Assembly: GCF_004210375.1 (NCBI RefSeq)
Contig: NC_134831.1
Coordinates: 4,898,001-4,962,000, forward strand
Source of the DNA: Tachypleus tridentatus
Lineage: Eukaryota > Arthropoda > Merostomata > Xiphosura > Limulidae
Reading direction: 5' to 3'
DNA length: 64,000 nt
The notes beneath the pieces were generated by a model. It was not told where the DNA came from, did not search any database, and saw only the letters and a list, made by a program, of their open reading frames with translations. The position numbers and the translations under genes are program-made. This document shows positions 3,317 to 49,130 of this stretch, piece by piece (the first letter of the stretch is position 1; every line of letters starts with the position of its first letter).

Positions 3317-3704
3317 AAAGATACACCATTGGTTATCTGCATTCCATTCATCGCAGAGAATCAAACCTATAATTTTAGCAATGTAAATCTGGAGACTTAC
3401 AAGGCCCGGCATGGCCAAGCGTGTTAAGGCGTGTGACTCATAATCCGAGGATCACGGGTTCGCATCCCCGTTGCGCCAAACATGCTCGCCCTTTCAGCCG
3501 TGGGGCGTTATAATGTGACGGTCATTCCCACTATTCGATGGTAAAAGAGTAGCCCAAGGGTTGGCGGTGGGTAGTGATGACTAGCTGCCTTCCCTCTCTT
3601 CTTACACTGCTAAATTAGGGACGGCTAACGCAGATAGTCCTCGAGTAGCTTTGCGCGAAATTCAAAAACAAAAACAGACTTACAGCTGACCCACTATAAG
3701 ACTC
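3317..3704 (-). mobile_element. SINE-V split by a younger SINE-T
   Basis: The reverse-oriented body lies at 3,317-3,401 (CACCATTGGTTATCTGCATT, then GCAGAGAATCAAACC). Its head resumes after 3,676 (AGACTTACAGCTGACCCAC). The duplicated target AGACTTACA flanks the insert at 3,393-3,401 and 3,676-3,684. Confidence 0.75.
3402..3675 (+). mobile_element. SINE-T, full length, nested in SINE-V
   Basis: It starts AGGCCCGGCATGGCCAAGCG (box A), and box B is GGGTTCGCATCCCCG. It has the complete central domain and the tail GCGCGAAATTCAAAAAC. A perfect 9-bp target duplication, AGACTTACA, brackets it. This is one of the better-preserved copies and defines the family's length here. Confidence 0.93.
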
Positions 3705-3719
3705 TGATCAGTCACATTT

Positions 3720-3990
3720 GTTGTTTCTTTGTTTTTGAATTTCGCGCAAAGCCACACGAGGGCTATCTGGGCTAGCCGTCCCTAATTTATCAGTGTAAGA
3801 CTAGAGGGAAGGCAGCTAGTCGTCACCACCCACCGCCAACTCTCCGGCTACTCTCTTACCAGCGAGTAGTGGGATTTACCGTCACATTATAACGCCCCAC
3901 GGCTGAAAGGGCAAGCATTTTGGTGCGACCGGGTATCGATTCCGCGACCCTCGGATTACAAGGTGCCTTAACCACGTGGCCATGCCAGAT
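3720..3990 (-). mobile_element. SINE-T, near full length
   Basis: Reverse-oriented: TTTGAATTTCGCGCAAAGCC (tail), CACCACCCACCGCCAACTC (central domain), GGCTGAAAGGGCAAGCAT, and a head ending GGCCATGCCAG. Confidence 0.9.
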
Positions 3991-8975: not shown

Positions 8976-9417
8976 CATTGCTCATAGCACTAATAAGATG
9001 AGTTGTGACTTCAAAAATATCTCAACTTTGTTGTCCAATTCTATGTTAATTTGCCATCAATGGAAACTTGACACTATTGTATTGACACCAGAGAGGTACA
9101 GAATGTAAACAGGTTCTCGATATAGTACATTTTAAATAAAAACTTATACTATCGTATTGATATCACTATTGTACTTCTACAATGGAGAGCATATAGATAA
9201 TAGCAGTAACTTTAATATGAATTATATTGGATAGCATGTTTGTCAAATAATAATTAAAATCACAATCAAACATCCAGTTATGAACGTTATTGCTAAGCCT
9301 GATTTACCTGCTGTTAATTGATCCACACGATGTAAGTAGGTGTGTATTATTTGTGCTTGTCTGAGTACTATTTAAATTAGCATGTCGAAAGTTAAAAGCT
9401 GATATGTTTCACTCTAC

Positions 9418-9775
9418 CTGATAAGTCAGTGCAGATTGAATAAACCCCCCCTTGCAAGGGAACGAGGTAGATGTGACCGTCGGAACTGAAGTTCCACCCG
9501 TGTTGATTGTAGTAGGAGGCGATCTTTTCCACGTCTCGAGGGGCGCTGGGATGTGCAGCTTTAACACGGGCCACGTGGCTACTCACCCACATCACCGTGT
9601 GCTGGCTGTTGTTAGCGGCATGGCGTACCTGACTCCGTCTGAAAGTGACGGTCTCCCAGTGATTTGTGAGGAGGGCGACAGAAAGACACACTGTTGCGGC
9701 GGCGGTAATAACCACCGTGGTCCAGCTGAAGATGGAAGTAAACGAGAGACACGACTCCTTGTTGCTGTTTTCCAT
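9418..9775 (-). CDS. First coding exon of a claudin-like tetraspan, probably a second stargazin/TARP gene (gene B, partial)
   Basis: This exon encodes 119 residues plus one base. It reads from the ATG at 9,775 to a GT donor (CAG|GTAGAG) at 9,417. Residues 16-37 form TM1 (FSWTTVVITAAATV onward) and are followed by TNHWE, the place of the tryptophan after TM1 in claudin-like proteins. The exon ends in GGVYSIC, at the position of the GLWxxC signature, but with Tyr for Trp. N-X-S sequons lie at N55 and N95. The exon ends in phase 1, as every intron of gene A does. An upstream in-frame ATG at 9,877 would add 34 residues. I prefer 9,775 because it has G at -3 and +4. The rest of the gene must lie to the left, and I found no second exon in 1-9,400. 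The protein would be an integral membrane subunit. Membership of the tetraspan superfamily is firm, and the TARP assignment is an inference. Confidence 0.75.
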
Positions 9776-10420
9776 CCCTATGCGTTCCGATTTCTTGCTG
9801 CCGACCTGCTGACGCCCAGGGATCTTTGGAGATAGAATAGGCACTTCTCTCTTGATTACAAGTCGGACCCAGTCCATACGGAACCTTAAAATACAGAAGC
9901 TCTTTGGACAAGTTGTGCTGGATTTCCTGTCGAGACGAAGAAACTGTTGACTAAGCCTAGATCTTGTAACACATTAAACTGTGAATTCCTCACTGAAACC
10001 TATCCTCTGACATTCCCTGAGACAAAGACGTTCAGTATCTATTGCATGGCGTGTTTCTGCGGTTGGATCTAACAACACAGTTTCAACTCGACTTCGCGTG
10101 ATCGAACTCGTGCCTCTCGATATGCTGACAGGAAGTTCTGAGTGATAACGCCGCGCGCAGCTTGCGTAAACGCGACGTGTAAATGGCTACTAGTGATACT
10201 GATGTTCAGACCTTGAAAGCGCCTGGTAACGAGACTACGATGCCTTCATTTTTGAGGTGCTATAAGTTGTCCTGCACGAAGTGAATAGAACAAGTTTTAT
10301 GTGAACTCAGAATCAGTGTGAATAGTATTAACGTTAATTTGAAAAATAAAGTGGGTGAAATTGAGGATTTTATACCGCGAGTAGAGGTTTACGTCAAACT
10401 AATAGGAAATTAAACCAATC
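9776..10420 (-). promoter_or_regulatory. Probable 5' UTR and promoter region of gene B
   Basis: The block upstream of the gene B start is free of SINEs. It is visibly richer in CG dinucleotides than the rest of the window, for example CGCCGCGCGCAGCTTGCG near 10,150 and AAACGCGACGTG just after. I see no convincing TATA box at a fixed distance. The transcription start cannot be placed from sequence alone. Confidence 0.35.
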
Positions 10421-12336: not shown

Positions 12337-15210
12337 ATTAGTGATGTCGAGAAAAATATATATGTAAAAACGGACCGTTTGGATTGAGAAAATATTTTAC
12401 GTAGAGGAGCGAACAACGTTTCGATCTTCTTCGGTCATCGTCAGGTTCACGAGAAGTGTAAGTCTTTGTGTTTTCTTTGTTTATTTGTACTTATCTGTTA
12501 CCATTATGTCTGAACTAGCATACCGTACACCACTATTAACAGTACACGCTCATACGATGGTTAAGAAACTAAGAAATTTAAACCAAAATATTATCAATAA
12601 AAGAAATGACATCTATTTCATTCAACATGTAGAAAGGAACAACTAACCTTAACTTTGTAAAGGTAAAACTATCAAAAAATGTTAATAACTACACAAACAT
12701 TATCCAAAATTTTAGGGAAAAACTACTTAAAGCCATGTTGAACACGAAATACAAAGAACTACATGACTTACAAAAACAAAAAATGAGCCTAGACCATCAA
12801 CTGGCATGCTGCATCAAATCAGAGATTTATGGACTTATACAACGAAACATAAACCAAATGAACACTAGGAATGACAGAGACAAAAAGATCTGCCACAACA
12901 TAAAACTAGAAAAACTAAGATGCAAATAGCAGAAAAGACACCACGACAAACCGTTGACTAACCTCATAATTAACAGATCCGACCGACAATTAAACACAGA
13001 CGAGATACATCTGTTTAACAAAGGACTCAACTTCGCAATAGCACCTAGGTACCTAGGTACATTCCAACCTTAGAAATCTAAACATGTTTAAAAGATCTAG
13101 CCAGGAGACTTGTGATACTTTCTACAGAAAACAAAAACAAGAAAAAAACCAAAACCAACCAACAGATAGAAGACAACTTAGACAATTTTAGTGACATCCA
13201 ACAGCCAAACTTCCCAGGAAAAATAAAAAAAATATATTTTCCAGAAACACCTAAAAACAACATCTTAAACGATTTTTAAAAGAATTTTCTCACAAAACCA
13301 TCAACATAATTTCACAAAACAGAAAGCTAAAAAACAATCTTACAAAAAGAGACATTACTTCCATTAAAAACCTAAAACAAGACAAAAACATAAAAATTCT
13401 AAAAGCAGATAAAGATAATACTATAGTCATAATGAACACGAATGAATACATCCGAAAAGTGAAGAACATCCTATCAGACACTAACAAATTTAAACCAATA
13501 CACACAAATCCAACAAAGACACATGAGACGCAACTAAACAAATTACTACTACAAATGAAAAACGCCAACACAATTTCACAAACACTTTATTCTTACCTAC
13601 GGAAAACCGACTTACGCACACCACAAATATAAGGCATCCCCAAACCTCATAAACCAGATTGTCCATTACGACCAATAATGTCCACATATGAATCGTTTAA
13701 TTACAATCTTGGTAAATACATAGCATGGGCATTCTCCAAATATGTAACATCAGCTAACTCATTCATCAAAGACTCTTTTAATTTCAAGTCTAATCTAAAT
13801 CAACTTAATCATAAAGCCTTAATGGCCAGTTTCGATGTTATATCCCTCTTTACAGAAGTTCCAACCGCTGAAGCCTGTAAGATCGTCCTAGAACTCTATA
13901 TCCGAGACCCTGACCCATCTATAGACATTCCCAGCAACCGATTAACAACCCTCATAGAATTCACCACAATGAAGACAAACTTCATGTTCAACAACCACAA
14001 ATGGCCTGAGCATGAGCAATCCAGTATCACCAGTTCTAGCCAATATTTTTATGACACAAGTTGAAACACAAGCAATTAACACAGCATTACATCCACCACC
14101 ATACTGGTACAGATCTGTAGATGACACGGTTGCGGGATTCAGATCTTCAGAACACACACTTAATTTTTTCAATCACATTAACTCTATACAACCCAACATT
14201 AACTTCACATGTGAACAAGAAGAAAGCAATCAAATATCAATTTTTAACCTCAAAATTACAAAAACCAATACAAAATTTAAAACAGAAATCCACCACAAAA
14301 TCACCCATACTGGACTATACATTCCTTGGGACTCAGCACATGAAACAAAACAAAAACTCAACATACTAAGAAACCAAATAAACACTGCCGTAGAACTATG
14401 CTCGTCAAATAAAACTAACGACTAATTAAACATTATAAAACAATACTTCATCAACATCAATAAGTTTCTTCCACACATAGACAAAAAGCAAAATCAACTA
14501 ACAAAAGTAAATATATCCCACGAATCAAAAAATCTCGAAACCATATACTGCTGCATAACATATATTCCTGACATCAGCAGAAAATAACCAACATTTGGCA
14601 AAACTAGTAACAAAATATGACATTCCAGTTAATACCAAATTTATTCAAAAACCAGGAACAAAACTGAGGTCTATACTACGTAAAAACTACACTGACAAAC
14701 ATCACACTAACATTACTTATAAAATACAATGTGATAACTGCTACGACTTCTATATTGGTGAAACAAGTAGAAAAATGAAAACCAGATTCAAAGAACACGA
14801 AAAGTGACCTTCAGGCGTTTTCGAACACTGCAAATTAAGTAAATACAACATAACCATGGAAAACACTCAAATACTAAATAAAGAAACAAACATAAACAAA
14901 CGCAAAATTAAATTAGCCTTACTTATACAACAACTCAAGCCCAAAATAAACCAATACGAAGGAACACTTTTATAGATATATTAAAAATAATATAATAAAT
15001 AATAATAACAAAATAAATAATATAAAATTATCTTTCAGACATCTAAGCACGCCCTCTACATTTCGACAGTCAGTTACACAACCCCTTTCAAACATGTGGT
15101 CAGCTTCCGAGTGAACCTGACGATAACCGAAGAAAGTCGAAACGTTATTCGCTCCTCTACGTAAAATATTTTCTCATATCAAACGAGCCGTTTTTACATA
15201 TATATTTTTC
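12337..15210 (+). mobile_element. Penelope-like retroelement with 99-bp terminal inverted repeats
   Basis: The left terminus 12,352-12,450 and the right terminus 15,111-15,209 are imperfect reverse complements of each other. The left reads ATGTAAAAACGGACCGTTTG and the right reads CGAGCCGTTTTTACATATAT. Inside them, on the plus strand, is a decayed gene with reverse transcriptase and GIY-YIG nuclease segments, the domain set of Penelope-like elements. AACCATTA occurs at 12,329-12,336 and 15,216-15,223 and fits a target duplication. Because the host array itself carries that word, the duplication is not independent proof. A short extra segment, TAGTGATGTCGAG, precedes the left repeat and also starts the palindrome at 42.67 kb. 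Confidence 0.88.
12505..14975 (+). pseudogene. Broken Penelope-type reverse transcriptase with C-terminal GIY-YIG nuclease
   Basis: The coding sequence is legible in pieces that change frame. GLNFAIAP lies near 13,030 and ILKADKDNTIVIM near 13,400. GIPKPHKP follows an in-frame TAA near 13,630. SFDVISLF (motif A, with the catalytic Asp) is near 13,835, NPVSPVLANIFM (motif B region) near 14,020, and a damaged SVDDT (motif C, with the Asp pair) near 14,120. The C-terminus has YKIQCDNCYDFYIGETSRK near 14,720-14,780, a GIY-YIG type start, and an in-frame TGA after EHEK at 14,805. At least three frameshifts and three stops make it inactive. In live relatives the protein copies its RNA template and nicks the target DNA. 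Confidence 0.87.
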
Positions 15211-20540: not shown

Positions 20541-20956
20541 CTATTTAATTATTTTGTACTATTTCTGATATCATTGCTATTATTTTTCCTTCTAATAGTT
20601 GTTTCATTTTACTATTTCTAATGCTTATGAATGTACTCTTTAGTCCACGTCATTCTATATTACTTATTATATTTCTATTATTTTACTGTTTTAATTATTT
20701 TACCATCATAATTATTACGTTTTTTTCAACTCTATTTTCGTCTCCTATTCGCCTTTTTTTTTTACTGAAAATATTTCGCTTCTGGAACGTTTCGAATGAA
20801 AGTCAAGTTGAGCACCTTCGTGCTGCCATTGTGAACTGTTGTAAATATGCATGACGTCACTCGTGTGACACGTCACAAATTTGGGTATTTATTAAAGCGA
20901 CATCTAGAACTTGTTACTCAAAATAAGTTGCACGATATATATATATATATATACAC

Positions 20957-22520
20957 TGCTGACCGCAAACAGTCCAATGAATATGAAGAAAAAATATGCA
21001 TTTGCGTTGTTAGATTCAACCACTTATTTGAGTAGAGCTTCCAAAGATGAAAATAATTAAAGAGAAAATAAAATAAAAACCTTTTTTAGCATTTACTAGG
21101 TAAAATGTGAACACTATGAAATTAGCCTAAATACTAGCTGGTCAAAAGTTTAAGACCATACCAAGAAGAAGTCCTAAACATGGTAGGAAATACCCAACAA
21201 GAGGTCTCAGAAGTGAGTTCCACGGCCGTCATCGCGAATAACTTCAAAACATTCGCTTTGGCATGGTCGATATAAGCGTTTACAGAAGGCTGGCTGGAAT
21301 GTTATTCCAAGTGGTGAAGATGGTTTGACGAAGATCATGCACTGTTTGGAATTGACGTCCATTTCTATAGACTTCCCTTGCCATTCAACCTCAACCATTT
21401 CCAATGGGGCTCAGTTAGGGCGAACACGCTGTATGGTCCAAAAGAATCACGTTATTCGCCATGTAAAAGTCTTTTGTCCTACGAGCATTGTGGATTGCAG
21501 CGTTGTCCTGCTAAAAGATCCAGTGATTTCCACACATAAGGATGCTCTCTCCAACATGCCAATGTAGCCAGCTGCTGTTTGACGCCCCTGTATAACCTGA
21601 AGCTCCATTGTTTTATGGAAGAAGGAAGCACCCCAGATCATGATGGAGCCTCCTCCACTGTGTCATGGTGAAAATGTTTTCGGTGGGATATCCTTATCGT
21701 GCCAGTAACGTTGGAAGCCACTTGGACCATTCAGGTTAAGTTGTTTCTCATCAGAAAACAAATCCTTCTTCCACTTTTCTATGTCCCATATTTGGTGCTT
21801 CTCAGCAAAGTTTAACCGAGCTGTTTCGTGGTGTGGAAGGAGGCGTGGCCTTTGAAGACGTTTACGGTTTTTAAAGCCTTTCTCTCGTAGATGCCGTCTT
21901 ATTGTTTTTGAGCTGCATTCTGCGTCCGTAAGGATCTTAATCAGGTTCGACGATCGGCTGGTGTCTTGCCGAACAACCCGTCGAATCCTCCGGCTCAACG
22001 CCGGCGAAATGTTCCTGGGCCGACCACTTGATATTCTCGTTTCGTATCCCTCAGGGTCGTTTTAGAAATTTGCAACAGCAGTTTTACAACGCCCAATCTC
22101 ACCAGCGATGGCATGTTGAGACAGACCTTGCTTTTGCAGCTCGACAATTCTGCCACGTTCAAACTCTGTCAACTTTTAAGCCTTTGCCATGTCTTTACCC
22201 AATGTAACACAGGAGATGTCAGTGGGCGATGTTGACAACTCTAATGCTTGAACACAAATGACTAAATTTCGTTACGTGTCTACCGATTAACGCTTTGTTT
22301 CAGTGTGGTCTTAAACTTTTGACCAGCTAGTATTTAGGCTAATTTTATAGTGTTTACATTTTCCCTATTAAATGCTAAAAATGTTTTTTATTTTTATTTT
22401 CCCTTTTGTTATTGTCATGTTTCGAAGTTCTACTCAAATAAGTGGTTGAGTCTAACAACGCAAAATGCATATTTTTTCTTTATGTTCATTGATTGGCCTT
22501 AAAATTTTGGCCAATAGTGT
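20957..22520 (-). mobile_element. Tc1-like DNA transposon with long IR/DR termini, inactive
   Basis: The outer 210-220 bases at each end are imperfect inverted repeats (for example TGCGTTGTTAGATTCAACCA at left and GTTGAGTCTAACAACGCA at right). Each terminus carries a related motif twice. The inner copy is GGTCAAAAGTTTAAGACCA (about 21,139, and its complement near 22,310). The outer copy is GGCCTTAAAATTTTGGCC near 22,494, with a decayed partner at about 20,965. Two spaced direct repeats within each inverted repeat is the IR/DR arrangement of Tc1 elements such as Sleeping Beauty. Both ends abut TA runs, as expected for a TA target. Confidence 0.88.
21207..22190 (-). pseudogene. Broken Tc1-like transposase
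   Basis: From the ATG at 22,190 the product opens MAKA, then a stop, then KLTEFERGRIVELQKQGLS. This is the helix-turn-helix start of Tc1-type transposases. The continuous stretch 21,998-21,663 carries the linker ([19 protein letters not shown]) and the first catalytic Asp block ([12 protein letters not shown]). The second block, QDNAAIHNARR near 21,480, is in a shifted frame after an in-frame stop. The third acidic residue region near 21,400 is damaged. At least four stops or shifts make it non-functional. In life it would cut and paste the element. Confidence 0.88.
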
Positions 22521-22540
22521 ATGTATATATATATATATCA

Positions 22541-24635: not shown

Positions 24636-25302
24636 TTAAAATAATTACATTAATGATATTCCGGGAACAAAATTTGAGTCAACTTTCATCAATCAAGTCG
24701 TCAATCGGTAGTCAAACACTTTAGGACATTTTTTTTTCTCATCTTGCGAAATTTTTGTTAGAAATTCCTTGTTCTAATTTTATTTGTATTGAGAATATCC
24801 ATAAAAACCTGAATTGGAATGCTAAGACTCCATTTTCATCTTAGAACATAAAAGAAAAATAAACACTGTAATTACAGAGGTTCCGGTGTTCGAAACTACA
24901 GCCATAGAGAGTCAGTAGGGGAGGGACAGTGAAATGTCCGATGCTCCAAAATCAACACTGACGTAGCAGTCTCGTCAAGGAAGTTACTTGTCTGTGAAAG
25001 GAATAGGGAAATCCGGGTAAGCAATGGCTGTATGATAGATATACGTTGTCCTGAAATCTAATCTCATTTACACTTATTAATAAACATTCTGTTGTTATGA
25101 CAATTTATGTTATTCGTGAGACTGTGGAGGAATGAATGATATTTTGTTCGTAATTCATCTTACAAACAAAAACAACACATGAATGAACACAAGTAACAGT
25201 TATTGTACTACTGTTACTTGACACCGTGTTTTCTACAAATTCATTTTGTTACAACAGCGAACAGAATAAGAAATGTAGATGTTTTCGTTATGTCCATTCG
25301 CG
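24636..25302. other. Spacer; nothing recognised
   Basis: No supported gene or repeat family. Confidence 0.45.
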
Positions 25303-32413: not shown

Positions 32414-32955
32414 TCACACAGGTGTCGTGCGACGAATCGTTTCGAACGAGAAATCACGAGAGTATTCTCTGTTGATGTCAGCTGTCGTTGAAACAGTATA
32501 GCACGTGGTGTCCCTAGAAAAAGGAGGGAAGTTGTAATAAGCCAAGTCTCTCATTGATTCCGATAGCGGTATGCCAGGATTCGTGTTGCGGCGCCCTCTA
32601 CTGGTAGAAGGGCAGGGAGACGCATCTCGTGATACATCACGCGCTCGACTGTTGCGTCGGCCACGTGGGTGGCGCCTGCATGGAATGTGGTCTTCTCCAT
32701 CTTGTAAAAAATCTTCATATTTCAACCTTTCTGCACACTTTTTGGAATCCAGCTTATACCACTGAATGTATAGGTATACAGCAAACGTTCCAGATAGTTC
32801 ACACAGTAAGATACTAGCAATGGCTAGGGCAAAAGTGTAACCATAGCGATACTTGAATATCGGTCCTTGGAAAGAAGACTTCGGCTGTAGTTTGTTTCCA
32901 ACTTCGGCTTTGAAACTTGAAATATAGATGACCACACCCATAAGATCGAGTAAGC
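32414..32955 (-). CDS. stg1-like: Stargazin/TARP-like calcium channel gamma subunit, last exon (gene A exon 4)
   Basis: The exon follows a TTTTAG acceptor at 32,956 and completes a Gly codon begun at 41,459. It encodes LLDLMGVVIYI (end of TM3), a short second loop, TM4 (YGYTFALAIASILLCELSGT and onward), and a cytoplasmic tail of about 115 residues rich in Arg and Ser. Two tail features match vertebrate stargazin-type TARPs. One is SRDASP in the Arg/Ser-rich region that in vertebrates is phosphorylated. The other is the C-terminal RRTTPV, whose TTPV is the class I PDZ ligand that binds PSD-95 in mammals. TARPs traffic and gate AMPA-type glutamate receptors at synapses, and related gamma subunits modulate calcium channels. 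Family membership is firm and the exact partner is inferred. The segment has 179 residues plus the shared Gly. Confidence 0.95.
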
Positions 32956-33724: not shown

Positions 33725-34075
33725 CTCAGGAATATACTTGGCATCACTTTACACATTATTGAAATACATTTAGTATCAATGTGCATATTGTTGTAGTATA
33801 TTTTGTATCTCTTTGTATATTACTCCAACATATTTGGCATCACTTTACACATTGATGCAATATATTTGGTATATTTCATATTGTCGCACTATATATGATA
33901 TCTATTTGCATATCGTTACAATGTATTTGTCAGCACATTACACAATGTTTCTATATACTTGGCATCACTTTACACACACTTTTGAAATATGTTTGGCATC
34001 ACATTACACATTGATGCAATATTTTTGGTATCACATTACACATTGGTGAAATATATTTGGTATATCTTTTCACGC
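33725..34075. repeat. Degenerate minisatellite, unit about 37 bp
   Basis: TTGGCATCACTTTACACATT followed by GATGCAATATAT-type segments recurs about nine times with much drift, for example at about 33,740, 33,834, 33,960 and 33,995. Confidence 0.8.
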
Positions 34076-35397: not shown

Positions 35398-35555
35398 GAA
35401 ACGTAATGATGGGATAACACCAAAACATCTTAAAATTAATTTATATACGGATATTAAAAAAACACAACAAAACTGTATACCTTTCATAAACATATATATC
35501 AGGAAAAACTCGTGAAAATTTTGAAAGTATGAGAAACAAAATAGGGTGTTGCACT

Positions 35556-36639
35556 TAACCCTGGTATTTTGCGGTATTTCGGTCTTTCATTACGGTTGTG
35601 AATAAACTGTTAGAGACGTTTAGCAATCCACTACAACTATTTATCTGCCTTTCTTTCGGCTGAAAGCCTAGTAGTAGTTGTTAGTATCAGCCAGAATCAA
35701 TTTGCAGCTGCCACGTGCCATAAGTAGATAGTGAGAGTTCTAAATGGGTTGGGAAACACAGCGATGAAGAAAGATTTAAAGCAGGAACATTTCAGTTAAT
35801 GTTCAAACATATTCTGATTCACTTCCAAGTCCTTAAGTTAAAGCAAAGCATCAAATTATTTTTCTGAATCAAAATCACCATTAATCTTGCGGTTGAAAGA
35901 AAATTCTATTCCCACTCCTGGCTAAAAGAGCGTGTTACGGTAAGTTTCATCTTACAGCGCCATCTCATAATCAAAAGAAAAAAAGTATGTTGAAAATAAT
36001 AAAGTAAAGTAAATATTTCTAGTTGCTGTTTTCTCCTTTTTCAAATACAGAATATTTTCTATACACTTTGATAATATTTGTTGTTGTTGTTGTTTCAAAT
36101 AAGAATCGTGACCTTATTTTTTGCTTATGTTTTGTAAGATCTAAAAATATAATTTTTTAAAGCTGTTTACAACTTGAAAGTATGTGAAAGGGGAACTTCC
36201 TGGTTTTCATTTTTCATTTCTGTTTTATACTAAGAAAAGTTTGTTAGGCATTATTTAAGATAAATAAATAAACTATACATTCTGAGTAAAATGAAAGACG
36301 AAACGTTGATAAGAATAATATCTATTATCTGAAGTTAGACGTTTTTTTACTTATTTAGATTCGGCAAGACCAGGTAGGTTCAGGCGTTCGATTCGTAATC
36401 TGAGGGTTGCGGGTTCGATTCCCCGTCGCACCAAACATGCTCGCCTTTTCAGGCGTGGGGGCGTTATAATGTTACGATCAATCCCACTCTTCGGTGATAA
36501 AAGAGTAGCCCAAGAGCTGGCGGTGGATGATGATGACTAGCTGCCTCCCCTCTAGTTTTACACTGCTAAATTATGGACGGCTAGCGCAGATAGCCCTCGT
36601 GTAGCTTTGCGCGAAATTCAAAACAAAACCAAAACCTTT
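35556..36639 (+). repeat. Left arm of a 1-kb inverted duplication in gene A intron 3
   Basis: From TAACCCTGG at 35,556 to AAAACCTTT at 36,639 the sequence is the near-exact reverse complement of 45,688-46,692. Shared landmarks include CAGCTGCCACGTGCCATAAG, CCCACTCCTGG and a (GTT)n run. The arm includes a whole SINE-T at its right end. By eye, non-SINE identity is well above 90 percent. Exon 3 of gene A lies between the two arms. Confidence 0.95.
36360..36630 (+). mobile_element. SINE-T inside the left arm
   Basis: A diverged head (TTCGGCAAGACCAGGTAGG), box B GGGTTCGATTCCCCG, a complete central domain and tail GCGCGAAATTCAAAACAAAA. The matching copy in the right arm is at 45,700-45,907 and has lost about 60 central bases. 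Confidence 0.92.
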
Positions 36640-37087
36640 ACTTATGTATTCGAATCCCACAGACTCGTTTCAATTTTACTGCTTCATAAGTAGCTCTGGA
36701 TTTGTTATAAGTACTTTAAAATTAAATAAGATAATATACAGGTTCTTGTAAGAACGTTTTCTCCTAAGTATTCAAAGTTATAAATACAATAATTGCATTT
36801 TAGGATTAGGCCTAAAGTTGAATTTTTAAAACCAAGTAGGGAGCAAAATAAGTAACGATATACTTATAATAGACAGTTTATAAAATAAAGTATAAATTTT
36901 ATTTGATTGTAAAGTATGAGTCAACAAGCGGTGTTAAAATAACAACAAACGTTAACAGTTTTCCATTTACTTCAGACCCTACATAAACAAATCTAGCAGT
37001 TTTGCGTTCGAGCATTTACTTATACTTATTTTAGTCAAAAAAAAAAAAAAAAAGTAAAAACAGCAAAATAATGCTATGCCGATATTT
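36640..37087. other. Intronic spacer
   Basis: AT-rich, with an A run at 37,038-37,053. No repeat or coding sequence recognised. Confidence 0.45.
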
Positions 37088-37155
37088 TTAAGGCTGAAAG
37101 GGTGTTATAGTGTCACTATCAATTCCATTTTTCGTTGAGCATAAGAGGCTTAAAA
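37088..37155 (+). mobile_element. SINE-T central fragment
   Basis: GGCTGAAAGGGTGTTATAGTG, then CAATTCCATTTTTCGTTGAG. Only the start of the central domain remains. Confidence 0.6.
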
Positions 37156-37327
37156 AAAGTATTACTTTCTGTTACTTCTAAAACAATCACTTTATTTAGA
37201 GACATGTTAAATATGTGAACATTGATCAGAAAGTAATTTAACATTATTAATATTATACGAGTTTTATTAATAGAAAAATACAATATTTTTATTTCACCAG
37301 GAAAACTAACGTTGAAAATTTGTTTCT

Positions 37328-37412
37328 TTCAGAGCAAACCCACATTGCGCAATCTTCCATGTCATCCAAGGTTTTAGAATTGTAAATATATAAAGTTACC
37401 GTTGTTCCATTT
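37328..37412 (-). mobile_element. SINE-Vb fragment
   Basis: Reverse-oriented: AGAGCAAACCCACATTGCGC, then GGTTTTAGAATTGTAAATAT and GTTACCGTTGTTCC. Confidence 0.55.
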
Positions 37413-37459
37413 GATACAATAACAATTGTTACGATGTTTACGCCTTATAGTTCTTTAGG

Positions 37460-37707
37460 GTTTGGTTTGTCATAAATTTCGCGCAAAACTACTCGAGAGC
37501 TATTTGCGTTACCCGTCCCTAACTTAGCAGTGTAAGACTAGATGAAAAGCAGCTAGTCATCACCATCCACCGCCAGCTTTTGGGCTACTCTTTTTCCACC
37601 GAATAGTGGGATTGACCGTAATGTTATAACTTCCCTACGGTTGAAAGGGCGAGTATGTTTGGTGTTATGGGGATTCGAACCTTAACAACCTGGTCATGCC
37701 GGGCCTA
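37460..37707 (-). mobile_element. SINE-T, near full length
   Basis: Reverse-oriented from TTTGGTTTGTCATAAATTTC to GGTCATGCCGGGCC. About 28 bases of the anticodon region are missing. Confidence 0.9.
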
Positions 37708-38459
37708 ATTCTTAAGGGAACTTGAGAACTAAATTTGTGATACAACAAACTGTAAAGTGTTATTCCTTTTATGACTTTGTAGAGAATGCTTTCACGCTCC
37801 ATTTTAGGTAATGCTCAACAATATACATTGTCACTTAGGAACAAAACTATGATTTGATTGTTCTTAGGTCAACTACGGTGTTTAAATATGCATGTTGAAT
37901 TGTTGGAAAGCTTTGTTTTTTTACAGTCTATTGTTGTTTTTCATACCTTCGATGAATAAGAACAAAATAGTTTAAATAGGAAGTTCTATGATACGAAGTT
38001 GTAGCCAAAAGATAAATAACACTTACCAAGTATTGTTTCAGCTAAGCCTCACGTTAAGGTTATGTGTTAAATTATAATATAAATATATAGAGTTATTGTA
38101 TATAACGGTTGAAATGGTGAATAAATATAAATTAATAAATATTCTTTTGGAATTTTAACACATATATTAACTATTTGGCCTTAAAACATAAAGCAAGATG
38201 AATCTTTATTATTACTAGAATAATTTTTGTTCTTTGTATGGTTGAAAGAATTGATAGTATGTGTTTGTGTTTAAAAGATTTTAAGTGTTCAAAAAACTAT
38301 TTTAATACATATATTATCTAATACTTTACCTTAAAACATAAAATAATCGTTTATCACTACGAAATGCATTTTATCATTTTTATAGTCGAAGGCGTTTAAA
38401 GTTCGTGTCGGAATGTCCATACTATGTTTTCTATTTCCTTACCTTGACTAAGAACACTA
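37708..38459. other. Intronic spacer
   Basis: ACTATTTGGCCTTAAAACAT and a similar TACTTTACCTTAAAACATAA lie about 160 bases apart, a possible old duplication. Nothing else recognised. Confidence 0.4.
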
Positions 38460-38545
38460 GAAACTAGGTTTCGATACTTGTGGTGGGCAGAGCACAGATA
38501 CCTCATAGTGTACCTTTGTGCCTACCTTCAAATAAAACCTAACCT
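38460..38545 (+). mobile_element. SINE-Va, 5'-truncated
   Basis: AACTAGGTTTCGATACTTGT (box B), GGGCAGAGCACAGATACC (module), then a decayed tail. Confidence 0.72.
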
Positions 38546-39357
38546 AAAATAAAGTGAGAAGGCTAAAACGTGTTGTTATTTAAGAATTTTTTCAGAATGC
38601 ACCTATACATTTGTTCTTAACAACATTTCATGTTTCTGTGTAGTTCTTACTAATAATGTGGTGATTAAATAATTTCTTCGATATTAATGAAATAAGTGAA
38701 AAGTAGGTGGATTCTGAAAGTACAGACAACTTTGTTTTCATTAAATTATTTAATTTTCGTTAATAACTCAGTAATTATTATCTGCCATCTTTGACGGGCA
38801 TTTGTACAGGTATTCATATCACACGATATTTGTGTTCTAATTCTTGAAAACCCTTAAGGGACTAGATTTAAAATATAATATTTAGAACTGTAACAAAGGT
38901 AATACTGAGGTATTATGGTAAAAGTAACTATTATTGCTGTCCCAGTGGAACATAAATATATCAAACTATTTTTTTTTTAGAAACTAAAACAATATAAAAG
39001 TAGTGTAAACGTAAACAATGTTGAATTTTACGATAATTTCTTTGTACAGTAAACTCGACTTTTTTGGCGGTTTGGAAATTACCGACTGTTTTTATGGAAG
39101 TTTGCAGTGAGTAACTTTATTTCATTTTTTATTTGTCACAAAAACAACTCAAAGTAAAGAACCGACCAATAACATTAAGAGAAATTACCTGTTTTTAAAT
39201 TAGATAATCCAATGAGTACAATTGTCGGATTAATTGTAATGTTAAACGTATTTTTGATTCATTTATTTTGTGTGACTCGAATGTTTCTGGACAGTACAAC
39301 CGTCAAAAACCATGTCTTTACAAGAAATTTAAAAATCCAATGGTTGTATAACCTGTC

Positions 39358-39485
39358 AGCAGGTCCCAAGCTGGTACAGCCGTAAGTCCACGGAGTTACA
39401 ACGCTAAAATCAGGGGTTCGATTCCCCTAGGTGGACTCAGCGGATAGCCCGATGTGGCTTTACTACAAGAAGACACACATACACA
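39358..39485 (+). mobile_element. SINE-Vb, full length
   Basis: CAGCCGTAAGTCCACGGAGT (head), CAGGGGTTCGATTCCCCTAG (box B), GCGGATAGCCCGATGTGGC (module) and tail AAGAAGACACACATACAC. This is a good reference copy of the family. Confidence 0.9.
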
Positions 39486-39550
39486 GCTACCCCCAGTTCT
39501 ACAATTAAAACTACTTTATGATGACGAGAAATCCAATTAAATAGAAATAT

Positions 39551-39725
39551 ATTCCAAAGACAGCTAGTACGGGTATTAAAACTTTAATTAAAATAACGTA
39601 TAGAACAATGTATCGACCTTCTTAGGTCATCTTCAGGTTAATAATGAATATAAGAAGGTGGAAACATTGTTCTGTACTTTATTTTAATTAAAGTTTTAAT
39701 ACCCATACCAGCCGTCTTGAGAATA
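39551..39725. mobile_element. Palindromic element related to Penelope termini
   Basis: Arms of about 65-70 bases are inverted copies. The left reads CAGCTAGTACGGGTATTAAA and the right ends TAATACCCATACCAGCCGTC. The middle holds CTTCTTAGGTCATCTTCAGG, which parallels CTTCTTCGGTCATCGTCAGG in the left terminus of the element at 12.35 kb. No coding sequence. It is likely a short non-autonomous derivative or a terminal hairpin. Confidence 0.75.
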
Positions 39726-39744
39726 CATTAAAACCATTTTAGTG

Positions 39745-39868
39745 TGGACCCCTAACTGGCACAGCGATATATCTACGGACTTAAAACGCTAGAAATCGAG
39801 TTTTGATGCTCGTGGTAGGAGGAGCATAAGTTGAACATTGTGCAGCTTTTTGATTAATTACAAAAAAA
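39745..39868 (+). mobile_element. SINE-Va, full length
   Basis: CTAACTGGCACAGCGATATA (head), GAGTTTTGATGCTCGTGG (box B), CATTGTGCAGCTTTTTGA (module and tail). Confidence 0.8.
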
Positions 39869-40004
39869 CGACCAAATTTTGCTGTTGTTTCGAACCGAGT
39901 TTTGTAAAATCATTTTGAAAAACCCAACTATTCAACAAATTTAGGATATATTGTCCCTTTTGATTTTCAAACTATGTTTCATAGAACGTTATGCCAGAAG
40001 AATG

Positions 40005-40256
40005 TTTGTTTATTTCAATTTCGCGCAGAGCTACACCAGGGCTATCTGCGCTAACTGTCCCTAATTTAGCAGTGTAAATCATCACCACCCACCGCCAACT
40101 CTTGGGCTACTCTTTTACCAACGAATAGTAGGATTGATTATGACATTATAATGCCCCCACGGCTGAAAGGGCGAGCATCTTTGGTGCGATTAGGATTCGA
40201 ACCCACGGCCCTAAGATTACGAGTCCAATGCCTTAACCCACCTGGCCATGTTGGGC
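40005..40256 (-). mobile_element. SINE-T, short central loss
   Basis: Reverse-oriented from TTTCAATTTCGCGCAGAGC to GGCCATGTTGGGCC. The GACTAGAGGGAAGGCAGCTA segment is missing. Confidence 0.9.
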
Positions 40257-40736
40257 CATGCTAGAAGAACATAAAACTTCATTGCAATAAACGTTTATTT
40301 TTTGCCATTTTACCAGCCAACTTTAATACGCCACATTTGTTTTGCGATGTATACCTAAGTTTTAATAATTTCAGAGCATAAATACATTGAAATTGGGTAT
40401 ACAAATATAATCTATGGGAAAACGTATCGGTTGATATACATAAACGCCTTATCAACCATCTTAACATCCAATCCGTTTCTTTGTGTTTGTACTTTATATC
40501 TAGGGGTTCAAGGTTCCATCCCGTTGTTGTACTTTGGAGCCGCGGATACATTATGAGAATGACGACAGAGTCACACAACTCGTTCTGACAAAAGGTGTCA
40601 GAGAATCTATGTGTAGGTGTTGTTAATTAAATGTTGTTCTTCTAATCTATCAGTTGACAATTTAGTACATGTACCCCTTTTGTGACTTTGTGTATATATT
40701 ATACTTAATACAACTACCGCAGTTATGGTTCTCAAT

Positions 40737-41275
40737 TAGTAATGTGGTAATAGCGTGTTCGAATCCCTGTCACACCGAACATGCTCGCTTTTTCAGCCAC
40801 AGGGTCTTTATAATGTAACATTCAATCCCGCGTTTTGTTAGTAAAGAGTAGCCCAAAAGTTAGAGTTAGGTGGTGTCGATTGACTGTTTGTTGTTTTTTT
40901 AATTTTGCGCAAAACCACACAAGAGCTGTCTGCCCTAGCCGTCCCTAATTTAGCAGTGTTAGACTAGAGGGAAGGCAGCTAGACATTATCATCCATCACC
41001 AACTCTTGTGCTACTCGTTTACCGAGGAATTGTGGAACTGATCGTCATTTTATAACGTCCACACTACTGAAAGGACGAATATGTTTGGTGAGACGGAGAT
41101 TCGAACACGCGACCCTTAGATTACGGGACGAGCGCCCTAATTACCTGGTCATGCCGGAGCTCAGTGTGATGTTGAATAGCATGCCTTCCTTTTAGCTTAT
41201 CACTTCTAAATTAGGAACTGTTAGCGCAGACAGCCTTCTGGTGTCTTAATGCAACATTCAATAAATAAACAAGCT
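40737..41275 (+). mobile_element. Old SINE-T split by a younger reverse SINE-T
   Basis: The first part, 40,737-40,884, holds box B (TGTTCGAATCCCTGTC) and most of the central domain, and lacks the first 40 head bases. The remainder, 41,161-41,275, runs from TAGCATGCCTTCC to TTAGCGCAGACAGCC and a weak tail. Confidence 0.82.
40886..41159 (-). mobile_element. SINE-T nested in SINE-T
   Basis: Reverse-oriented and full length, from TTTTTTTAATTTTGCGCAAA to GGTCATGCCGGAGC. The flanks GTGTCGATTGA and GTGATGTTGA look like a decayed duplication. Confidence 0.85.
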
Positions 41276-41458
41276 ACTAATACTTTGATGAGTTTGTACC
41301 GTATTATTCCATCAGTAAAGGTTTGCAGTTTTCTTTTGATGAAGTTAAAGTTAAATATGCTTTTCTAGTCTTTTTAGAATAAATCACTGACACAAAAATC
41401 GTGTTAATTTTACGTTCCCTTGTACATAAGACCTGTAACAGAAATTATGTTAGCATAC

Positions 41459-41599
41459 CTGATAAGATAAAGGCAACACCTCCAGCGAAAGTTAAAATAC
41501 GTCGTCTTCTGATCACGTGACCACAGAAACAAAACATTTCGCCGGTAAGAAGGGTTATGGAACTCATAAAAATGAAAGTAGCCGCTCTTTTCATGGAAT
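41459..41599 (-). CDS. stg1-like: Stargazin/TARP-like subunit, exon 3 (TM2-TM3)
   Basis: This is a 141-base exon between a TCTTTTCAG acceptor (41,600) and a CAG|GTATGC donor (41,458). Phase 1 at both ends makes it a symmetric exon. It completes a Tyr codon from exon 2 and then encodes SMKRAATFIFMSSITLLTGE (TM2 from about residue 5), MFCFCGHVIRRRRILTF (a short cytoplasmic turn with four Arg) and AGGVAFILS (start of TM3). This is the TM2-loop-TM3 layout of TARPs. Skipping it would keep the frame but delete two membrane passes. It lies in the 9-kb loop between the arms of the inverted duplication. Confidence 0.94.
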
Positions 41600-42429
41600 C
41601 TGAAAAGACAACATTTATTAAGAATTTAATATCTGAGTGCGAAAACTTATTCGAATGTTTTCTGATGATACGAATGACATATGACCATTATTTATCTATC
41701 AAATAAGAAAGTATTGCGACAGCACTTTGTACTTCCAACACATAGCGTTATCGTGAGTCTGTTTTACCACCACAGTCTTTTGTTCTTAAATAATGTGAAA
41801 ACGTTATCGTAAATTTGATTTTTAGAGCCTACCTAAACTTATCAAAATGTTACATTTTATATTTGGGTTTGACAAAACGTTAAGAGATACAAAATTAGCT
41901 CAGGTGGAGACTGTGTTTGAGAATATTATTAAAACTTACAAGATAAAAAACCCAAACGAAACTAATTTTATGAATCATAGTAGCCACAATAACTTAGAAA
42001 AGCATATACCGTACTGAACATTTACTGGTATAACGAATTTCTTAATGTTGTAAATTAAAAACTGAAAATATATATATATTTATTAGATTGTCCCGAATTA
42101 TCATTAAGGGCTCTTACATTATATATTCAGCCATAAGCCTAATATCTCTCAAAATTTGTTCAGCTTAAGATATAGGTTAGTCCTAAGTCCACAAACTAAA
42201 TTGATTATAAACGATGTCTTATCGCTTTTTTCATTTGTTCCCAAAATCTAGACTTAAATATTACAGTTGGGTGACTGTTGATTGCTTCAATTGCGTTTTG
42301 AAATTTGGTGTCATTTTGCAGATATTAAGGTTTACACCTTCTATAGATTTCATGAGTTGTGATTTAGCTGAATATAATAAAAGTAGACTAAAATTTTATG
42401 AGATTTTAAGCAGCTCTTATTAGTAATTT

Positions 42430-42500
42430 TTTTAGCTAAGCCACATTTAGTTATCTGATGTGTCCACCGGGGGAATCGAACCCTGGATATTAACCTTACA
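42430..42500 (-). mobile_element. SINE-Vb fragment
   Basis: Reverse-oriented: TAGCTAAGCCACATTTAGTT, CGGGGGAATCGAACCCTGG. Head lost. Confidence 0.65.
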
Positions 42501-42504
42501 TTGT

Positions 42505-42894
42505 GTGTTTGCTTGTTTTTGAATTTTGAGCAAAGCTACGCGAGGGCTATCTTCGTTAGCCGTCCCTAATTTAGCAGTGTAAGACTAGAGGGAAGGCAGC
42601 TAGTTATCACTACCCATTGCCAACTCTTGGGATACTCTCTTATCAACGAATTGTGGGATTGACCGTCACGATAGTGATGTCGAGAAAACCCACTTGTAGA
42701 AATATATATGCAAATACGGCTCGTTTGGGTTGAATATTTTCTCAACCCAAACGAGCCGTTTTTGCATATATATGACCATCACATTATATCGCCCCAACGG
42801 CTAAAAGGGCGAGCATGTTTGGTGTGAGAGGGATTCGAACCCGTGACCCTCGGATTACGAGTCGAGTGCCTCAACCACCTGGCCATGCCGGGCC
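42505..42894 (-). mobile_element. SINE-T split by a palindromic element
   Basis: Reverse-oriented: tail at 42,511 (TTGCTTGTTTTTGAATTTTG), central domain up to GGGATTGACCGTCAC at 42,669. It continues after the insert at ACATTATATCGCCCC (42,781) to CCATGCCGGGCC. Confidence 0.92.
42661..42782. mobile_element. Foldback element with Penelope-type terminus and 9-bp target duplication
   Basis: The inserted segment (42,670-42,773) is flanked by GACCGTCAC (42,661-42,669) and GACCATCAC (42,774-42,782). It begins GATAGTGATGTCGAGAAAAC, matching the left edge of the Penelope-like element at 12.34 kb. It then forms a 32-base inverted repeat, 42,702-42,733 against 42,742-42,773 (arm core CGGCTCGTTTGGGTTGA), with one mismatch and an 8-base loop. 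The arm matches the CGAGCCGTTTTT end of that element. Confidence 0.85.
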
Positions 42895-42902
42895 TTAACA
42901 CA

Positions 42903-42992
42903 GAATAGTGGGATTCACCGTCACGTTATAACGGCTTCGGAGGTGAAAGGGCGAGCATGTTTGGTATAAGGTGGATTCGAACCAGCGACTCT
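42903..42992 (-). mobile_element. SINE-T head fragment
   Basis: Reverse-oriented: GAATAGTGGGATTCACCGTC, GGCGAGCATGTTTGG-like segment, GGATTCGAACCAGCGACTC. It starts within the central domain and directly follows another SINE-T. Confidence 0.8.
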
Positions 42993-43264
42993 CACAGTGA
43001 ATATTGCAACACCATATTTTTTTCATTCCACAGAAGTTTGTGTATTGGTTGATGACACGCTGGTTGGACGTTTTGTTGTTTTCATTTGTCCTAACATAGC
43101 TCCTTTACGAAAGCAAAATAAACTGCGCCCAGAAAGATAACCAGGGTATGACTAGATAGATCTAAAAGTAGATTTTTAAGCCGAATTTTTCACCGAAATA
43201 TGTGATTCTGAACAGTTATAAAACCATGGATTACCACGTTTGAAACGTTGTTCATACTCCTAGT

Positions 43265-43515
43265 CAGGATTAGAATAGACCTAATACACAAGAAATCCAA
43301 CTTAGTAACAATTATTAACTTTTCTTCAGGACTAGACTAGACTTGACACACGGGAAATCCAACTTACCAACAATTATTAACTTGTTTTCAGGACTAGACT
43401 AAACCTAATACACAGGAAATCCAACTTACTGACAATTGTTAACCTGTTTTCAGGACTATACTAAACTTAATACACAGGAAATCCAACTTACTAACAATTA
43501 TTAACTTGTTTTCAA
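43265..43515. repeat. 62-bp minisatellite, 4 copies
   Basis: CAGGACTAGACT recurs at 43,327, 43,389 and 43,451, after an earlier diverged unit. Each unit has CACAGGAAATCCAACTTAC and CAATTATTAACTTG. Confidence 0.93.
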
Positions 43516-44384
43516 TGGTATACACTGTATGGTAATTAAATTATATGAGTTAAGAGCCACACATTTACAGAGACTCAGCGCTAAGCTAGATAGCTTTTAG
43601 TGCTTGAATTTTGGGTTCGATTCCAGTACAAATTGGCACCTAAGAACAAGTAAACAAGAACGAGTGAAGTTTGATTAAATATTGAAAGACAACGTGCACA
43701 GTTAGTTGCTCATCAAATATTCATCTGATGCTAATATGTCTTATTCAATTCCTTAAGAGAGAACATAATGTTATCTATAACTCTCATATCAAATGTGACT
43801 CTGATTACTTTCATACAGCGTTATTCTATCTACATAAATATAACAGTGTTGTTTGTCCATGTAGTTACTTCACGCGCCGCGGACGGATCTTCACCAGAAT
43901 TATTATGGAGGTTCATTAAGTCCAGTATAGCGTTTTGCAGGTTTTATGAGTATTTTTGCGTATTTTAACAATATTTCACACCCTGTAAATATATCTTCCC
44001 CAAGTTTGGTTTAAGGGTTTATTGGGTCAATGGGAAGAAACATACAAATTTAAGTTTTGCGTTTGACATTTTGGGGTTTTTATGGTCGATTTTTGTTATT
44101 CTTTTGTCTCCTTTTGATGGATTCCAATCATATCTGGCGTGAAGGTTTGTTGAGTCCATGTGGAGACATAAAAGATTTACAGATTTACATTTTGTTATAT
44201 GTATTTTTTACCATATTTCAGCGTTTCTTTATTTTATTTTTTACAATTACAAAAAAGGAGGAAGTTTTCATGTTCTAAGATAATCTTTCATTAATCATGG
44301 ATTTGCATAACTTCCGTCCAAGGAACTCGTGCGCCACCTGGTATTTAATATTTTAATTATTTGCTGCACTGTTTGATTTTCCGC
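43516..44384. other. Intronic spacer
   Basis: A box B-like GGGTTCGATTCCAGTAC near 43,614 may be the remnant of another SINE. Short open frames at 43,728-44,278 have no recognisable feature. Confidence 0.4.
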
Positions 44385-44462
44385 TCAGCAGGAAGCCTGA
44401 AGGATTATAACTCTAAAAATAAGATTTTCATATAAACAGAGCACAGGTATCTTAGTGCGAGG
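44385..44462 (+). mobile_element. Weak SINE-Va remnant
   Basis: GATTATAACTCTAAAAATAAG, then AAACAGAGCACAGGTATC. Low similarity. Confidence 0.4.
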
Positions 44463-45687
44463 CTAACGGCAAACAAAGTAAAAAAAAATCCATTTTTCAC
44501 AGTTTGTACAACATTCTAAGTGATGGCAATTGGCTATATTATTCGCCCAGCTTATAAAAAACACATCACACACTTCGTCAAAGTGAAAACTTACACTGCC
44601 TAATGGGGAGGGGGTAACTGCCTTCAAATCGTACTTTGTGTTTAATTTCTCGAAGACAGAAACATAATTTGCGTAGAAATTCGCCTGGAACTGCCGTTTC
44701 ATACGCTAGAAGTTCATTTTGCACTGCTTTGTAAACTTACATTATATAAAAAGGGACACTGTTAGTATCGTGACGAAATGACTAACTGCAATTACAAGTA
44801 AGACCAACAACGTTCATTAATTATTACTTACGGTAGAGTTACTTAAAGATCAAGTTAGGGAAGTCTTTGTTTCTATACGGATTTAGCAGTGACACTTTAA
44901 AGAAATATTCCTTAATTTAGAGTAATGATATTTACGTGTTTTTTTTATTGTTGTTGTAAATTTAGAGAGATTTTCAAATGCACGAAAAAAATAAATTAGG
45001 TACCTAACTCATTACACGATTTACTAATGTTGTATTTTTTAATGGACTTAAATGTACGCCACTAAACTTTTCACTGATTCTTTTTGCGAGTTAACATTAA
45101 TATATGGCAGCTGTGGGACAACAAACTGGTACAGCTACTTTTTGTTACAGACGTTTTGTGCCTCCGGTGATGAATCCTTTATTTAAAACACGTTTTCCTG
45201 GTTACAAAAATGAGTTGTAAAAGCATGCTTAAGGCTTCTGATCAACAAAAAATACGTTTATAACGAAATTCTTTTTATATTTCATATCTCCTCGTTTACT
45301 ACCTGACTGGCATCTAGTCAAGTGTTAACACCAATCACATCAACAGGACTTCAACGGTTATCAAGACTTATATTTAATTATGTTAGAAAATTATTAACCT
45401 CACTAGATTGTTTACTGTAAACGAGCGCAGCAAAGCTTTTAAAACAATTTAGGGTTTTGACCTCAAGGCGGCTTAATATTAAAGTAGCTTTTTGTTTTCT
45501 GAGAATACAGTTATCGCTTGGCAACTACCAACTATTGAAATTAAAAATTTTAATGTATTGTGCAGTAATCTTAAACTAATCAGTCTAAGCTGAATATATA
45601 TATTAGTGACACAAAACTAATATTTGATGATTTTAATTAACGAATATTTAAATTAATTTTGTCTTTCTAAGCCTCTAAATATTTGAG
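44463..45687. other. Intronic spacer
   Basis: AT-rich, with no named repeat or supported exon. Confidence 0.45.
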
Positions 45688-46692
45688 AAAAGGTTTTGTT
45701 TGTTTTGAATTTCGCGCAAAGCTACTCGAGGGCTATCTGCGCTAGCCGTCCCTAATTTATCAGTGTAAGACTAGAGGGAAGGCAGCTAGTCACCACCACC
45801 CACTGTCAACTTTTGGGCTACTCTTTTACCAACGAATAGTGGGATTCGAATCCGTGACCCTCAGATTAAGAGTCGAACGCCTTAACCCACCCGGCCATGC
45901 CGGGCCTAAATAAGTAAAGAAACGCCTAACTTTAGATAATAGATATTATTCTTATCAACGTTTCGTCTTTCATTTTACTCAGAATGTATAGTTTATTTAT
46001 TTATCTTAAATAATGCCTAACAAACTTTTCTTAGTATTATACAGAAATGAAAAATGAAAACCAGGAAGTTCCCCTTTCACATACTTTCAAGTTGTAAACA
46101 GCTTTAAAATATTATATTTTTAGATCTTACAAAACATAAACAAAAAATAAGGTCACGATTCTTATTTGAAACAACAACAACAACAAATATTATCAAAGTG
46201 TATTGAAAATATTCTGTATTTGAAAAAGGAGAAAACAGCAAGTAGAAATATTTACTTTACTTTATTATTTTCAACGTACTTTTTTTCTTCTGATTATGAG
46301 ATGGCGCTGTAAGATGAAACTTTTAGTCAGGAGTGGGAATAGAATTTTCTTTCAACCGCAAGATTAATGGTGATTTTGATTCAGGAAAATAATTTGATGC
46401 TTTGCTTTAACTTAAGGACTTGGAAGTGAATCAGAATATGTTTGAACATTAACTGAAATGTTCCTGCTTTAAATCTTTCTTCATCGCTGTGTTTCCCAAC
46501 CCATTTAGAACTCTCACTATCTACTTATGGCACGTGGCAGCTGCAAATTGATTCTGGCTGATACTAACAACTACTACTAGGCTTTCAGCCGAAAGAAAGG
46601 CAGATAAATAGTTGTAGTGGATTGCTAAACGTCTCTAACAGTTTATTCACAACCGTAATGAAAGACCGAAATATCACAACATGCCAGGGTTA
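45688..46692 (-). repeat. Right arm of the 1-kb inverted duplication in gene A intron 2
   Basis: Reverse complement of 35,556-36,639. Landmarks read in reverse: CTTATGGCACGTGGCAGCTG, CAGGAGTGGGAATAG and an (AAC)n run. It starts with a SINE-T in the mirrored position. It is 79 bases shorter than the left arm, chiefly from a loss inside the SINE. Confidence 0.95.
45700..45907 (-). mobile_element. SINE-T inside the right arm, internally deleted
   Basis: Reverse-oriented: TTTTGAATTTCGCGCAAAGC, ACCAACGAATAGTGGGATTC joined directly to GAATCCGTGACCCTCAG, and head GGCCATGCCGGGCC. The ACCGTCAC-to-GGTGCGACGG segment present in the left-arm copy is missing. Confidence 0.92.
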
Positions 46693-47074
46693 GGTCTATC
46701 ACCTGATTTTGTTTGCGTGATACTGTACTCTACCAGTGCTGGTAGTCGAAAGGTTATATTTGACTCGTGGATGATATTGTAACTTTTCTAGACTGGTGAT
46801 AGTAGTTTAGTTTCAGCTAGAGTACAATTAAACAAACTCCCAGTTACAAGCACAATGTGTTTCGCCCAAGATCAACTTTGAAAGAGATATATAAAAGATA
46901 AATACCATTAAGTGGTTTGGTTTTTGTTAAGATGTACTGTTGATATTTTTAGTTTTATTATTACTCAAATAATTCTGTTGTTGCTTAGAAGCCATTTTGG
47001 CACCTCGCCACACCATCAAACCCTACTTTGGTACTGACCAAATTGTTTTACAACTATCTAATTTCGTTCGAACT

Positions 47075-49037: not shown

Positions 49038-49130
49038 ATGGAATAGCCATTGTCGAGTCGTTGGGATCCGGGCTATAATCTTCTGTAGGAAAATAGTCGA
49101 TGTAGAAACAGCGAAAGTTGCTTTTACCAG
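49038..49130 (-). CDS. stg1-like: Stargazin/TARP-like subunit, exon 2 (end of first extracellular loop)
   Basis: This is a 93-base exon between a TCCTTTTTAG acceptor (49,131) and a CAT|GTAAGA donor (49,037), phase 1 at both ends. It encodes GKSNFRCFYIDYFPTEDY and then SPDPNDSTMAIP, with a Tyr codon shared with exon 3. NF-(x)-C-(x)-ID-FP is the distal extracellular-loop pattern of TARPs. The Cys is a likely partner for the Cys after the GLW-type motif encoded by exon 1. The upstream exon, carrying the start and TM1, is not found between here and 64,000. Confidence 0.9.

Follow-up and report, generated by a model that had tools for sequence, protein, structure and literature searches.

The TARP-type gene and the inverted arms around exon 3

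Exon 3 of a TARP-type gene of the horseshoe crab Tachypleus tridentatus is enclosed by two inverted copies of one intronic sequence, located at ~35,525-36,640 (arm 1) and ~45,696-46,724 (arm 2) of the stretch analysed here. This window comprises 64,000 nucleotides of contig NC_134831.1 (assembly GCF_004210375.1, positions 4,898,001 to 4,962,000 of the forward strand) and contains no N bases; all positions given below refer to it. The gene is encoded on the minus strand, and three of its coding exons were identified, all with phase-1 joins and AG/GT flanks (Table 1). Joined together, they give 257 residues with TARP homology across the transmembrane segments TM2-TM4. A PDB search with this reading returned 31 distinct sequences at E values of at most 0.001; the matches are TARP chains, among them gamma-5 chimeras and gamma-2 chains, with gamma-7 as the best (E 3.1e-21), and the open frame of the last exon alone matched gamma-7 at 7.5e-12. 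The gene thus resembles TARP (calcium-channel gamma subunit) genes in these matches and in its terminal TTPV, which in type I TARPs serves as the PDZ ligand. It differs from them in that an exon 1 carrying TM1 was searched for within the 64-kb window and not found, the exon numbers 2, 3 and 4 being those of an earlier sequence-only reading of this DNA, and in that the exon-4 frame scored 21.5 bits against Pfam PMP22_Claudin, below the curated cut-off of 26.7. Elsewhere on the minus strand, a 193-codon open frame (9,392-9,973) contains a hydrophobic TM1-like stretch and the motif LLTNHWE and may be the opening exon of a further gene of the four-TM (TARP/claudin-like) type; it had no Pfam match up to an E value of 5, and PDB gave weak matches to designed proteins, the best at 0.0068.

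No inverted match in the window is better than that between the two arms. A BLAST self-comparison aligned 35,534-36,423 with 46,714-45,841 at 94% identity across 890 columns, and a second repeat search returned ungapped pieces of 482 nt at 95% and 395 nt at 97%. Homology reaches its outer limit at ~35,525/46,724, where the local score was 39 compared to a maximum of 31 in 300 shuffled pairs. The inner limit at ~36,640/45,696 is reached through a dispersed repeat resembling a short interspersed nuclear element (SINE), and past these inner ends homology is no better than in shuffles (score 29; 95th percentile 30). In the direction of transcription, arm 2 follows exon 2 and ends 4.1 kb before exon 3, and arm 1 begins 4.8 kb after exon 3 and precedes exon 4, with an intron 2 of 7,438 nt and an intron 3 of 8,503 nt; when the dispersed repeat is excluded, the core arms stop 4.3 and 5.1 kb away from exon 3. 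These introns also contain tandem arrays, at 33,731-34,060 in intron 3 (periods 32 or 93) and at 43,264-43,514 in intron 2 (period 62).

The inverted pair proposed by the sequence-only reading is thus present, and its geometry, with exon 3 in the loop and one arm in each flanking intron, was right. Its arm start at 35,556 has to be moved, as this position falls within the diverged outer edge and homology begins at ~35,525. The inner ends of both arms are copies of a repeat of which the window contains 42 fragments. Only the core of ~760 bp has a single partner, with no second one in the 64-kb window; the outer edge likewise has no other copy there. Arm 2 is shorter than arm 1 by a 16-nt stretch in the core and by 62 nt in its SINE-like part.

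Table 1. Coordinates of the arms and of the identified coding exons.
Feature	Position	Strand	Description
Arm 1 outer edge, diverged	35,525-35,574	+	Intron 3; partner ~46,675-46,724; from 35,534, 41 ungapped columns with 10 substitutions
Arm 1 core	35,575-36,330	+	Near-identical to arm 2 core; 35,575-35,862 difference-free; 16-nt indel
Arm 1 SINE-like repeat, inner end	36,359-36,636	+	One of 42 family fragments; 9.2% from window consensus
Arm 2 SINE-like repeat, inner end	45,696-45,907	-	62-nt internal deletion; 7.4% from consensus
Arm 2 core	45,908-46,674	-	Intron 2; pairs with 35,575-36,360
Arm 2 outer edge, diverged	46,675-46,724	-	Partner of arm 1 outer edge
Exon 2	49,038-49,130	-	93 nt, phase 1-1; AG/GT flanks and frame; part of the TARP-matching 257-aa reading
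Exon 3	41,459-41,599	-	141 nt, phase 1-1; AG/GT flanks and frame; TM2 and first half of TM3
Exon 4 (last coding exon)	32,414-32,955	-	542 nt with stop; encodes the end of TM3, all of TM4 and a cytoplasmic tail terminating in TTPV

Mosaic divergence and the origin of the arms

The 51 substitutions in 1,019 ungapped columns between the arms are unevenly distributed. Among models with one to five segments, the three-segment model had the lowest Bayesian information criterion, separating the outer edge (10/41), the core (10/740) and the inner end (31/238), which corresponds to a divergence of 1.4% in the core vs. 13-24% in the ends. The earlier description of the arms as near-identical consequently holds for the core and fails for the outer edge and the inner end. 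The longest identical run spans 288 columns, a length not reached when the differences were permuted 10,000 times (maximum 226), and the core differs clearly from the pooled edges (10/740 vs. 41/279, Fisher p 7e-16). No clear difference was found between the left and the right edge (p 0.09), so both are compatible with one older age. A core much more alike than the edges of the same duplication is what characterises an inverted repeat homogenised by gene conversion.

An assembly or polishing artefact, in which short-read correction equalised the cores or the pair itself is a misjoin, is very improbable. The cores are long enough to confuse short reads; against this, the 16-nt and 62-nt indels distinguish the arms, their outer and inner flanks differ, and the window is free of N bases. 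The mosaic also bears on the possibility that the arms are two independent insertions, in opposite orientation, of one mobile element of ~0.8-1.1 kb consisting of the core and the SINE-like end. Such an origin would agree with the end of the inner-side homology at the SINE-like tail and with the likely target-site duplication at the arm 1 SINE-like copy described below, but even divergence would be expected from it instead of the contrast between core and ends, and the window holds no further core copy. We consider it unlikely, also in view of the arm 1 core having no open reading frame >53 codons and the window no Rfam match at gathering scores, two results by which a coding or known-RNA origin of the core was rejected as well. 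Neither the core nor the repeat had relatives in phage records and viral contigs, both of which are expected to lack animal DNA, and one exact 31-nt core pattern had no match in the viral contigs.

The repeat at the inner ends belongs to a dispersed family of ~270 bp found on both strands. On either side of the arm 1 copy stand direct repeats of 12 nt, TTTACTTATTTA (36,346-36,357) and TTTACTTATGTA (36,637-36,648), which are identical at 11 of 12 positions and likely represent a target-site duplication; this suggests that the copy was inserted by target-primed retrotransposition. Length, dispersal in both orientations and the target-site duplication at arm 1 are those of a SINE, and we call the repeat SINE-like because a search of the window with ARAGORN detected no tRNA. 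Its head contains GGTTCGAATCC, a possible box B. Both arm copies start at the identical junction with the core (TTTACTTATTTAG), which indicates that the repeat predates or accompanied the duplication and was attached to the core by the time of copying. SINEs are given as a minor fraction of two horseshoe-crab genomes in a section of PMC7815833. In another part of the window (3,403-3,986), two SINE-like copies are arranged head to head and separated by 44 nt, giving an inverted self-match of 591 columns at 81% and thus a ready hairpin.

A direct comparison of the two SINE-like ends across 190 columns gave a difference of 14.7%. Among 26 other long copies (325 pairs), the median difference is 18.9% and the minimum 8.1%, and 14% of the pairs are closer than the pair in the arms. 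The nearest relative of the arm 2 copy is not the arm 1 copy but one at 25,291 (8.4%). Of 211 positions compared with the window consensus, 18 carry a change private to arm 1 and 12 a change private to arm 2, and 2 are changed in both. CpG decay was ruled out as the source of this divergence, as CpG transitions account for 3 of the 30 private changes. SINE-like ends about as dissimilar as random family members would fit a recent duplication of the core beside or into older repeat copies, with the diverged edges being older sequence outside the event. We rate this as quite improbable: the same SINE junction and a homologous outer edge would be required at both sites by chance, and the outer edge is without another copy in the window.

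On balance, we favour an origin in two stages, an old inverted duplication with repeats at its ends and a later homogenisation of its core through gene conversion from arm to arm. An inverted duplication of ~1.1 kb would have come first, with the tail of the dispersed SINE-like repeat as the end of each copy, and the copies would then have drifted apart by ~15%, as is seen at both edges. Gene conversion between the arms would subsequently have evened out the ~756-bp core at least once and perhaps twice, given that 288 bp are free of differences and the remainder of the core differs by ~2%. The diverged repeat and the diverged outer edge indicate that the copy is old, and for a young-looking core between two old edges gene conversion would be the simplest explanation. 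The length of the core is close to the scale quoted for conversion tracts in Drosophila (mean 518 bp, mostly <800 bp, in figures taken from PMC3961182). Several points weigh against this origin. Only 2 derived changes in 211 positions are common to the two SINE-like ends, which are about as dissimilar as many random pairs, and a pair of independent insertions at one site would fit them too, though this needs a coincidence; the outer edge spans just 41 columns; and since a single genome was used, the direction and number of conversions are not readable.

Predicted pairing of the arms in RNA and its possible effect on splicing

The predicted energy of the duplex between the two cores is -1241.3 kcal/mol, compared to -138.5 and -141.8 kcal/mol for the cores folded singly, values that take no account of transcription order or proteins. 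The core sequences in the pre-mRNA could accordingly form a near-perfect duplex of ~750 bp, in line with the very long pairing that had been anticipated for the arms. A special self-fold of the core was rejected, as the folding energy of each arm is like that of 30 mononucleotide shuffles. The SINE-like parts have 339 inverted matches in the window; 12 of their inverted pairs span exon 3 from the flanking introns, another 12 lie inside intron 3 and one lies inside intron 2. At least one inverted pair was found within 5 kb on either side of 1594 of 2000 random points, so bracketing by inverted repeats is ordinary in this window, whereas the length and identity of the core pair are not. The arm pair starts 5,036 nt from exon 3 and is thus outside the 5-kb list; within 8 kb around the exon, 12 pairs were listed, the arm pair being the best at 1377 bits and the next reaching 215.

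A-to-I editing in animals mainly hits duplexes of young repeats, as stated in a passage of PMC9989829, and ADAR editing of these introns is plausible and would be the first consequence to expect should the duplex form. The most likely fate of the RNA would be a passive one, with intronic double-stranded RNA that is accessible to ADAR and discarded with the introns. Skipping of exon 3 would occur at a low level at most, and any splicing effect would be small.

An influence of the arms on splicing is nevertheless possible. In C. elegans, complementary intron matches favour back-splicing and skipping, according to the portion of PMC8330042 that deals with them, and in fly neurons such matches promote circles together with ELAV, as described in an excerpt of PMC12404201. 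The earlier reading had offered circularisation and skipping, along with editing, as possible consequences. The arms could act as splicing elements whose pairing brings exons 2 and 4 together, so that neurons would produce mRNA lacking exon 3, circles of exon 3, or both. The duplex energy, the long flanking introns, a core without a competing partner in the window and an exon in phase on both sides agree with this. We nevertheless regard it as distinctly unlikely, since exon 3 is a lone exon of 141 nt, its core arms are several kilobases away and the SINE-like ends have rival partners in intron 3, with 12 inverted pairs compared to one in intron 2. The ELAV-like word TTTNTTT occurs at 6.35 and 3.91 per kb in the transcribed cores vs. 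2.42 and 4.47 per kb in the introns, and its enrichment was rejected as inconsistent. Fly studies cited in that same excerpt of PMC12404201 saw no general role for such matches.

The predicted skip product argues in the same direction. Exon 3 is symmetric, as the earlier reading had noted, and the frame of an exon 2-exon 4 join stays open to the normal stop. Of the two segments expected to be lost by skipping, TM2 would disappear entirely and TM3 in its first half only; LLDLMGVVIYISS of TM3 and TM4 would be retained, together with TM1 from the exon not found in this window. A working TARP without TM2 and half of TM3 is unlikely. A circle of exon 3 would have an uninterrupted frame, which is inevitable for a stop-free symmetric exon and thus no evidence of translation.

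Complementary stretches occur in both flanking introns of exon 3, as in pairs that give rise to circular RNAs. Exons of single-exon circles tend to be unusually long (noted in part of PMC6376117), a tendency rather than a rule from which the 141-nt exon 3 departs, and circularisation in fission yeast was strongly affected by exon length, as reported in an extract of PMC4479058. With core arms 4.3 and 5.1 kb away, exon 3 is a poor candidate for a single-exon circle. The locus shares its complementary stretches around an exon and its long introns with inverted Alu pairs, C. elegans zip-2 and fly Glut1. The zip-2 matches measure 7 and 13 nt (given in the same portion of PMC8330042), and the arms here are far longer and more perfect; unlike in those systems, they are far from a short exon. 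If conversion has kept the arms complementary, it would keep the RNA duplex perfect too. That a duplex maintained in this way is a working switch, which lowers full-length neuronal TARP through skipping or circularising of exon 3 or supplies ADAR or Dicer with long duplex RNA of a synaptic gene, has the slimmest of chances.

Neighbouring elements and the place of the locus among inverted repeats

Overlapping plus-strand frames at 13,255-14,425 look like a broken reverse transcriptase, presumably Penelope-like, with a Pfam RVT_1 match below the cut-off (E 0.014). A Tc1-type transposase fragment on the minus strand (21,663-22,061; PF01498, E 5.2e-13) is enclosed by inverted repeats at 20,934-21,161 and 22,303-22,539 (85%), and 20,934-22,539 is probably one decayed Tc1/mariner element. 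A tandem array with a period of ~88 nt occupies positions 1-532 and continues past the left end of the window.

Like inverted repeats whose copies stay alike through gene conversion, such as chromosome palindromes and int1h of the factor VIII gene, the arms around exon 3 are two inverted copies on one chromosome with a near-identical core, and the intervening segment, which here carries an exon, is at risk of inversion. Inversion by crossing-over between arms breaks the factor VIII gene. The present arms differ from these systems in their size (~1 kb, with a loop of ~9 kb), in lying both in one gene and in being alike in the core alone. Crossing-over between the arms would invert ~9 kb including exon 3 and break the TARP-type gene. 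The identity mosaic may be read as a modest trace, left in nature, of gene conversion across the ~9 kb that separate the two intron arms, and near-identical inverted intron repeats around a single exon would matter both as DNA, where they may lead to inversion, and as RNA, where they may form a duplex that is edited or disturbs splicing.

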